54,184 nt of DNA from Euzebya sp. (GTDB lineage Bacteria; Actinomycetota; Nitriliruptoria; Euzebyales; Euzebyaceae). Every line of letters starts with the position of its first letter. Positions within the stretch are counted from its first letter, which is position 1. Below the pieces are notes generated by a model. It saw only the letters and a program-made list of their open reading frames with translations, did not search any database and had not been told where the DNA came from. This document shows positions 24,375-25,845 of this stretch, in pieces. Location of the stretch: the NCBI RefSeq assembly GCF_964222135.1, contig NZ_CAXQBR010000055.1, positions 1 to 54,184 of the forward strand, given 5' to 3'. The translations under genes and the position numbers were made by a program.

Positions 24375-24456
24375 GCCGTGGTCCTACCCAGGATCCGCAG
24401 TGGCGAACACACGTTCGTCTACCGGGACTGGTCCGGGTCCGTCCGGGTCCGGCCGG

Positions 24457-24585
24457 ACTCTCAGTGCACTGACCCGGGTCAGTGCGTGGGTGTGCCGGCG
24501 CGGGTGCGGTCCTGACCTGCGCTTCCTCGACGGTCGGTGCGGTCCCCGTCGCAGCTGAACGGCGTTAGGTGCACCGAGAGTTCGA
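24457..24585. repeat. R2 palindromic element, copy A
   Basis: A 129-base intergenic element. ACTCTCAGTGCA (24457-24468) opens it and TGCACCGAGAGT (24570-24581) closes it in inverted orientation. A 20-base perfect palindrome (24466-24485) overlaps the first motif. A degenerate second forward motif lies near 24527-24540. The last 30 bases (24556-24585) recur at 25816-25845 with a single mismatch. A tandem 10-mer GTCCGGGTCC (24431-24450) precedes it. Confidence 0.8.
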
Positions 24586-24641
24586 TCGGGCGACCGGGCG
24601 AGGGGAGGGGCGAGGTGACGCCGACGGGCACCCCGGCGCCC

Positions 24642-25640
24642 TCAGCCCGCGGGGTGGAGGGTGCGGAGCGGGAGGCGCCGCGGCGGTTGGATCGGCAGCG
24701 GGGCCCGTGGGAGGGCGCCGGCGGCGACGAGCTGCTCGCGGTGCACCCGCTCGGTGTGGATGAACCGCGCCAGCCCGCCGGCGTCCGCCAGCATCGACTT
24801 GGTCACGACGATGACGCGGTACCCCAAGCGCTCGAGGGCGTGCCGGCGGGTCGCGTCCGCCTCGGTCCGGCCGTCGTGCGGGTTGCCGTGGTACTCGATG
24901 ATCAACATCGCCGAGAGGAACACGAAGTCCACCCGCAGCTGGCCGACGATCACGACCTGGCAGTCGGGGAGGGGTGGGTGGTCCTCGAAGAGGAGGCGGA
25001 AGGCCCTCCGCTCGCCCTCGCTCTCCTGGTCGAAGGCGCCCGCGTCGTACAGCGCGACCAGCCGGCGGGCGCCCGCGTGGCCGAGGGCCTGCCAGGTGGC
25101 CACCGCGTCCGGCAGCCAGAGCTTCCGGTCCCACCGCAGCTGGTCCACCGCCGTCCGGATCTGCCGGTCCGACAGGTCGCGGTCCAGCGCGGCGTCGGCG
25201 ACCGCGCGGTCGGGGAAGGTGGTCGGGTGGCCCAGCAGGTGGCGGACGGCGACCTCGGCCAGATCGACCCGACGGCGGGAGAACGCCTGCGGTGTGGAGC
25301 GCGGGTCGCGGCCGCCGGCGACGAGCACGAGCGGGCGGCAGGGCAGCTCGAACCCCTCCACACGCTCGAGGGCCAGCACCGGCGCACCGGAGAAGACAGC
25401 CGGCACGTCCGGGGTCGTGGCGCGCTGGCCGATGTAGCGGGTCGCCAGGTGGAGGCACTGGTCGTCGGGCACCTCGCCGTCGGCGTCGCGGTAGATGCCG
25501 TGGAGCAGGCGCTCTGCGAGGCCGTCCACGACCCACCCGGCCGGCTGCGTCCGGTGGAACCCGAGCCGGACGAGCTCACGGGTGGACAGGATCCTCCCGG
25601 GAGCGCGGGCGAAGGCCTCCGCGGCGGCCCTGGGCAGCAT
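24642..25640 (-). CDS. DUF559-type nuclease-like protein with AbiEi-like N-terminus
   Basis: A 332-aa protein. The N-terminal part (ILSTRELVRLGFHRTQPAGW, then LHGIYRD) looks like the winged-helix domain of AbiEi-type antitoxins. The C-terminal part looks like the DUF559/Vsr-like restriction-endonuclease fold: ERRAFRLLFEDHP, then RVDFVFLSAMLIIEYHG, where Asp and Glu sit as in a PD-(D/E)xK site, then RRHALERLGYRVIVVTKSML. A partner toxin gene is absent. ATG 25640 is the first good start downstream of repeat copy B; the gene exactly fills the space between two R2 elements. DNA cleavage is inferred only from the fold-like motif. Confidence 0.75.
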   Translation of the reverse strand: MLPRAAAEAFARAPGRILSTRELVRLGFHRTQPAGWVVDGLAERLLHGIYRDADGEVPDDQCLHLATRYIGQRATTPDVPAVFSGAPVLALERVEGFELPCRPLVLVAGGRDPRSTPQAFSRRRVDLAEVAVRHLLGHPTTFPDRAVADAALDRDLSDRQIRTAVDQLRWDRKLWLPDAVATWQALGHAGARRLVALYDAGAFDQESEGERRAFRLLFEDHPPLPDCQVVIVGQLRVDFVFLSAMLIIEYHGNPHDGRTEADATRRHALERLGYRVIVVTKSMLADAGGLARFIHTERVHREQLVAAGALPRAPLPIQPPRRLPLRTLHPAG

Positions 25641-25713
25641 CAGCCGAGCGTCGCGGGTGCGGCGGATCCGGCGCGGACGAGTTGCTCCAGGGTGTGGACA
25701 ACTCCCTCCCCTG

Positions 25714-25845
25714 ACTCTCGGTGCAGTGACCGCGGTCACCCAGGCGTCGTGGATCTGCTCTGTGCCGGTGCTGGACAGGCCCCGGGGCGACTCTCGGTGC
25801 GCCCGACCCCTCAGGTGAACGGCGCTAGGTGCACCGAGAGTTCGA
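25714..25845. repeat. R2 palindromic element, copy B
   Basis: A 132-base element in the same orientation as copy A, on the other side of the DUF559-type gene. ACTCTCGGTGCA (25714-25725) is followed directly by the palindrome GTGACCGCGGTCAC (25726-25739). A second forward motif lies at 25790-25800 and the inverted closing motif at 25830-25841. Its right end touches the broken 5' end of the patatin gene. Confidence 0.8.

Follow-up and report, generated by a model that had tools for sequence, protein, structure and literature searches.

Private palindromic repeats around DUF559 genes in Actinomycetota suggest an unrecognised route for spreading and maintaining repetitive DNA

Introduction

Two short palindromes stand on either side of a gene in the window, by which we mean the whole stretch of Euzebya sp. 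DNA that was analysed (54,184 nucleotides, contig NZ_CAXQBR010000055.1). What keeps them palindromic, and what have they to do with the gene between them? The sequence-only reading of this stretch had noted that the two differ by symmetric changes, and had proposed on that ground that selection acts on a hairpin or on a dimer-binding site. The features concerned are the following.

24456..24582, plus strand: repeat element A, with the forward half-site GACTCTCAGTGCAC at 24456-24469, then the internal palindrome, a degenerate middle half-site at 24529-24542 and, 40 bp further on, an inverted half-site at 24569-24582
24469..24482, no strand: internal palindrome of copy A, CTGACCCGGGTCAG; extended to 20 bp it covers 24466-24485
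24642..25640, minus strand: gene for a 332-aa protein, with an AbiEi-type N-terminal half (wHTH first) and a DUF559/Vsr-like nuclease domain
25713..25842, plus strand: repeat element B, with half-sites at 25713-25726 (+), 25789-25802 (+) and 25829-25842 (-)
25726..25739, no strand: internal palindrome of copy B, GTGACCGCGGTCAC

The two palindromes belong to a dispersed repeat

Both CTGACCCGGGTCAG and GTGACCGCGGTCAC are perfect 14-bp palindromes at the reported positions, their four differing positions do form two symmetric pairs, and copy A can indeed be extended, which makes 24466-24485 the sole 20-bp palindrome of the window. Taken singly the 14-bp palindromes are ordinary, as the window holds 21 of them against 14.5 expected from a Markov model. 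Isolated palindromes of this size are commonplace in this G+C-rich window. The weight rests on both occupying one position within a ~127-bp repeat that is present twice here, and this shared position is beyond chance.

A search of the window's genome (5.06 Mb, 111 contigs) found seven copies of the repeat at six places, all of them intergenic. The window holds two, contig C22 another two at a distance of about 10 kb, and C30, C89 and C105 have one copy apiece. The half-site ACTCTCNGTGC has 16 matches in the genome, compared with one for the reversed control. The layout is constant: a spacer separates the half-site GACTCTCrGTGCAC and internal palindrome TGACCnnGGTCA from a second half-site, and the inverted half-site follows after exactly 40 bp; in element B, half-sites 2 and 3 show this exact spacing. 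Inspected by eye, none of the seven copies showed a target-site duplication. They are few and diverged, and activity in this genome may be old.

The palindrome core TGAC..GTCA is unchanged in 7/7 copies. The outermost pair reads C-G in five copies and G-C in copy B, while one copy has lost the pairing (C,C). The innermost two bases are CG/CG/CG/GC/GG/GG/GT, self-complementary in four copies and not in the other three; being adjacent, these two bases cannot pair in a hairpin at all. Neither long-arm pairing shows a two-sided change among the seven copies. Unpaired changes, which the sequence-only reading had named as the observation that would speak against it, make up two to three of the four departures at the inner pair, with one paired and one unpaired departure at the outer pair. 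For covariation, 42 of 500 shuffles scored at least as high as the seven copies. Compensatory evolution within this genome is not significant, and the two-copy argument does not stand alone. Constraint on the palindrome is real, but the changes between copies A and B fail as evidence for it. As for what is constrained, a palindrome bound by protein is a better fit than a hairpin in RNA, since the product of the intervening gene has a DNA-binding domain of the AbiEi type, a family known for inverted-repeat binding.

Two other identities for the repeat were considered and rejected. An integron attC site, suggested by a resemblance to GTTAGGT, was ruled out on inspection, as other copies read GCTAGGT. 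An RNA family was also discarded, Rfam giving one sub-threshold chance CRISPR match and the folds of the seven copies disagreeing.

The gene between the repeats

Elements A and B bracket a gene of 332 codons (24642-25640, minus strand), whose product matches DUF559 in Pfam (1.3e-8) and AbiEi in PADLOC (8.4e-8). To our knowledge, DUF559 has no assigned function. The protein was modelled with AlphaFold from an 18-sequence alignment (mean pLDDT 83). Foldseek matched the N-terminal half of the model to the AbiEi antitoxin 6y8q (E 5.6e-7) and to Rv2827c, and the C-terminal part to the catalytic domain of the homing endonuclease I-Bth0305I (3r3p, TM 0.76 normalised to the target), which is the closest solved fold of the DUF559 nuclease domain. 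A profile search of PDB sequences concurs (3hrl, 1.5e-8; 3r3p, 8e-4), and the alignment of the nuclease domain contains conserved residues of the E/D/H/D type. The window protein reads IIEYHG where all 17 other aligned proteins, and the homologue in sister species G002, have EYDG; elsewhere its conserved acidic residues and histidines are intact. With EYHG in place of EYDG, the protein may be impaired.

No nucleotidyltransferase toxin (DUF1814) was detected beside the gene among the Pfam-scanned neighbours, which are SDR, patatin, ArsR and AHSA1 in the window, and glycosyltransferase and HTH_67 for the G002 homologue. AbiEi and Rv2827c bind 23-bp inverted repeats with a spacing of 3 or 13 bp (PMC7319586).

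Sister species and an inversion in place

The closest homologue found by BLAST is that of G002, with 55% identity over all 332 aa, at a different locus and with different neighbours. It is bracketed on both sides by ACTCTCGGTACAC arrays, a motif nearly the same as that of the window repeats, and further gene-free clusters of the motif occur elsewhere in that genome. At the other DUF559 loci of this set (30 loci drawn from 21 related genomes) the ACTCTCGGTACAC motif is absent. The paired window motif was found in the window's genome and G002 and in none other; the search covered 66 genomes from the class and 396 from the phylum, about 420 Actinomycetota genomes taken together. One array beside the G002 gene (L105:1076-1206) repeats a 27-bp unit in tandem, with a single ACTYTCGGTACAC half-site per unit. 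For an empty-site comparison at the window locus, the patatin neighbour has a sole homologue (40%), in one sister species.

The window's genome carries a second AbiEi-DUF559 gene (L101, G000:C13:16153-19341), located between trpD-like and AsnC-type genes. The same genes flank its counterparts in two sister species, L097 (G001) and L080 (G002). Compared with both, the L101 gene, together with part of the flanking repeats, is inverted in place, which indicates that the unit recombines between its own repeats. Within the genus, the correlation of protein similarity with flank similarity was not significant, being swamped by the conserved neighbouring genes.

Matching repeats flank DUF559 genes in many lineages

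A scan for homologues with the single protein as query gave nothing, and an alignment-based scan recovered relatives in Microbacterium, Euzebyales, Nitriliruptorales, Gordonibacter, Rubneribacter and Chloroflexi. Many of these loci have flanks rich in repeats, the sequences of which differ. We scored each locus by the best alignment of its upstream against its downstream flank, with a threshold of >40. This was passed by 25/38 DUF559 loci, of which eight are Microbacterium orthologues and so not all independent, versus 1/142 control genes (Fisher 5e-20). The motifs are specific to the lineage or gene and range from perfect 45-60-bp hairpins, as in Microbacterium and an Actinomycetales MAG, through to arrays; by our count over the listed flanks, they represent at least 10 unrelated families.

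The link between gene and repeat is not universal. Thirteen of the 38 loci fell under the threshold; at least one of them, L128, still has palindromes by eye, and most of the remainder belong to Chloroflexota/Dormibacterota. In Rubneribacter and Gordonibacter (L125 and L127), the DUF559 genes are bracketed by AT-rich inverted arms of the GGTTAAGAACGATTTT and GCATTTATGAACGATTTT types.

Dispersed palindromes in Microbacterium

Dispersal was assessed in the window's genome, G002 and Microbacterium. In the Microbacterium genomes compared, the DUF559 gene is syntenic and has its own palindromes on both sides. The gene is stationary, and about 15-40 gene-free cognate palindromes per genome are scattered between other genes (28 of the 29 examined are intergenic). 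Their arms measure ~21 bp and lie 14 bp apart, and their families include GAGTCGCC and GAGGGGTC types.

The number of copies follows the motif that flanks the gene. For example, GAGTCGCCAAGATTTGTCGCC half-sites number 78, 75 and 29 in the three genomes whose gene they flank, 8 and 2 in two genomes with GAGGGGTC-family flanks, and 0 in three genomes with other flanking motifs as well as in reversed controls; most are paired as arms 35 bp apart. For the second family, GAGGGGTCAATTTCTGTCGC, the two owner genomes have 28 and 23, two others have 12 and 8, and four have none. Symmetric changes in the arms were counted in the 35 complete palindromes of one genome, giving 25 against 10.3 expected, a value reached in 0 of 2000 shuffles. 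The general idea that these palindromes evolve symmetrically is thus borne out in the wider family, in Microbacterium, and not by the A/B pair of the window's genome. Flanking by matching repeats, gene-specific motifs, intergenic dispersal and symmetric evolution of the arms are all observed.

One intergenic site could be followed between species. At the junction of hemL and hemB (both named by eye from sequence), a palindrome of either family occupies the same position in five species and none is present in three, so copies are gained and lost, or else both arms are overwritten at once. Two related species (L149 and L172) have different palindrome families at this position, with both arms changed, and the difference is either a replacement or an independent insertion. 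In L122, L126, L129 and L132, the downstream palindrome either starts at the TGA that ends the DUF559 gene or overlaps it.

L122 and L132 share a motif, and over residues 1-55, the predicted winged helix, they are 67% identical, compared with 44-56% otherwise. The surrounding genes and nuclease domain of L122 are closer to those of L126, L131 and L129 than to those of L132. From this single discordant pair, the winged-helix residues appear to track the repeat family, against the relatedness of the genomes.

A nuclease that would spread its own repeats

Presence and absence of palindromes and replacement of one family by another at an orthologous site, one in-place inversion and the absence of Y1 transposases are observed. 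The reading that we favour, at a probability of roughly 0.65, is that the palindromes belong to a repeat family cognate to the gene that they flank, and that a sequence-specific nuclease encoded by this gene reads, cuts and spreads them. The AbiEi-type winged-helix half would bind the repeat arms, and the Vsr-like/EDxHD nuclease would cut at the arms or close by. The cut could then lead, through repair or strand transfer, to copying of the repeats into other intergenic sites, and the same process would keep the copies within one genome alike and occasionally invert the gene between its repeats. The gene itself would mostly be inherited in place while the repeats disperse, as in a REPtron with an unrelated enzyme. 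Such a sequence of binding, cutting and repair explains the two-sided flanking, the homogeneity within genomes, the dispersal, the family replacement and the inversion. We also count in its favour the likeness of the Microbacterium arms, in length and spacing, to the inverted repeats of AbiEi. Binding, cutting and copying, with the DUF559 protein as the cause of dispersal, are what we infer from these patterns.

We think it unlikely that the repeats are operators only, with a solitary AbiEi-type regulator acting on itself from upstream and on other genes via the dispersed sites, its nuclease domain being incidental. AbiEi and Rv2827c do autoregulate through inverted-repeat binding (PMC7319586), the N-terminal half of the protein matches both, and some repeats lie directly upstream of the gene. 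However, matching repeats are also found downstream, from the stop codon onward in several Microbacterium loci, the nuclease domain is the best-conserved part of the protein, and the 19 dispersed palindromes for which both neighbours were called lie between 10 convergent, 8 tandem and 1 divergent gene pairs, the reverse of what operators would give. The convergent pairs, and the many Microbacterium palindromes that follow stop codons, would suit bidirectional terminators or RNA hairpins duplicated by chance around the gene, and the folding of element A beats its shuffles (z -2.6). This explanation is nevertheless very improbable, as the z-scores of the seven copies run from -0.2 to -2.6 with differing structures, no T tract was seen after the palindromes that were read, covariation in the window's genome is not significant and the gene-specific motifs are left unexplained.

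The remaining alternative makes the DUF559 genes captured cargo of MITE-like repeats that another transposase moves. Terminal inverted arms, intergenic sites, elements of ~127 bp and the presence or absence of copies at an orthologous site would all be expected of such elements, but unrelated repeat families bracket one gene type in many lineages, motif and gene change together and target duplications were not seen. Moreover, the HUH Y1 transposase (Y1_Tnp, PF01797), the sole transposase family searched, was found in 0/12 genomes, which came from Microbacterium and the window's genus and included the window's own, with five control genomes positive. We regard a passenger role as quite unlikely.

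Comparison with known systems

The nuclease reading combines elements of several known systems. With the AbiE type IV toxin-antitoxin system, the N-terminal half shares the AbiEi/Rv2827c fold, as seen by both fold and profile, and the antitoxin's known ligand, an inverted repeat, resembles the present ones in size and spacing. Unlike in AbiE, no toxin gene stands beside the gene, a nuclease domain is added C-terminally, and the repeats occur on both sides and genome-wide. With I-Bth0305I, an EDxHD homing endonuclease (compared after PMC3943268), and with Vsr-like nucleases, the nuclease fold is shared (3r3p, 3hrl). Unlike homing endonucleases, the gene is intergenic, between its own repeats, without an intron, intein or host target gene; insertion of the gene into a pre-existing repeat is possible.

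The closest parallel in arrangement is with REPtrons (RAYT/TnpA-REP), in which a usually single-copy, immobile-looking gene is bordered by palindromes with gene-specific motifs, cognate copies of which are dispersed intergenically (PMC8266576, PMC3733652). Microbacterium shows this combination of bordering and dispersed palindromes, and so, in smaller numbers, does the genus of the window. The enzymes are unrelated, the HUH Y1 transposase that defines REPtrons being replaced here by an AbiEi-type DNA-binding half joined to a DUF559/EDxHD nuclease. The GTAG/CGTC tag was not noticed among the motifs listed here, and the arms can measure 14-25 bp. In the open-access literature searched, on DUF559, on palindromes linked with AbiEi and on REPs together with Vsr or Microbacterium, no earlier description of an association of DUF559 with repeats came up. 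The broader claim, that many Actinomycetota DUF559 proteins are sequence-specific nucleases each maintaining and spreading private palindromic repeats, in a second, independently evolved REP system whose reader and repeats co-evolve, is in our judgement evenly balanced. In such a system the driving enzyme would resemble a homing endonuclease and be fused to a DNA reader of the antitoxin type.

We know of no agent for REP-like palindromes that lack a RAYT. CGTC-tagged and untagged REPs form such intergenic palindrome families without a dedicated RAYT (PMC3733652), whereas here a candidate dedicated gene has been identified. If our reading is true, the function of DUF559 and the agent of RAYT-less REPs share one answer, a nuclease and its private palindromes as partners. 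The motif families, at least 10 in number, would provide natural pairs of DNA reader and target, useful for following the joint change of a winged helix and its site. A DUF559 gene with private repeats, recurring across Actinomycetota, suggests a route for spreading and maintaining repetitive DNA that has gone unrecognised.
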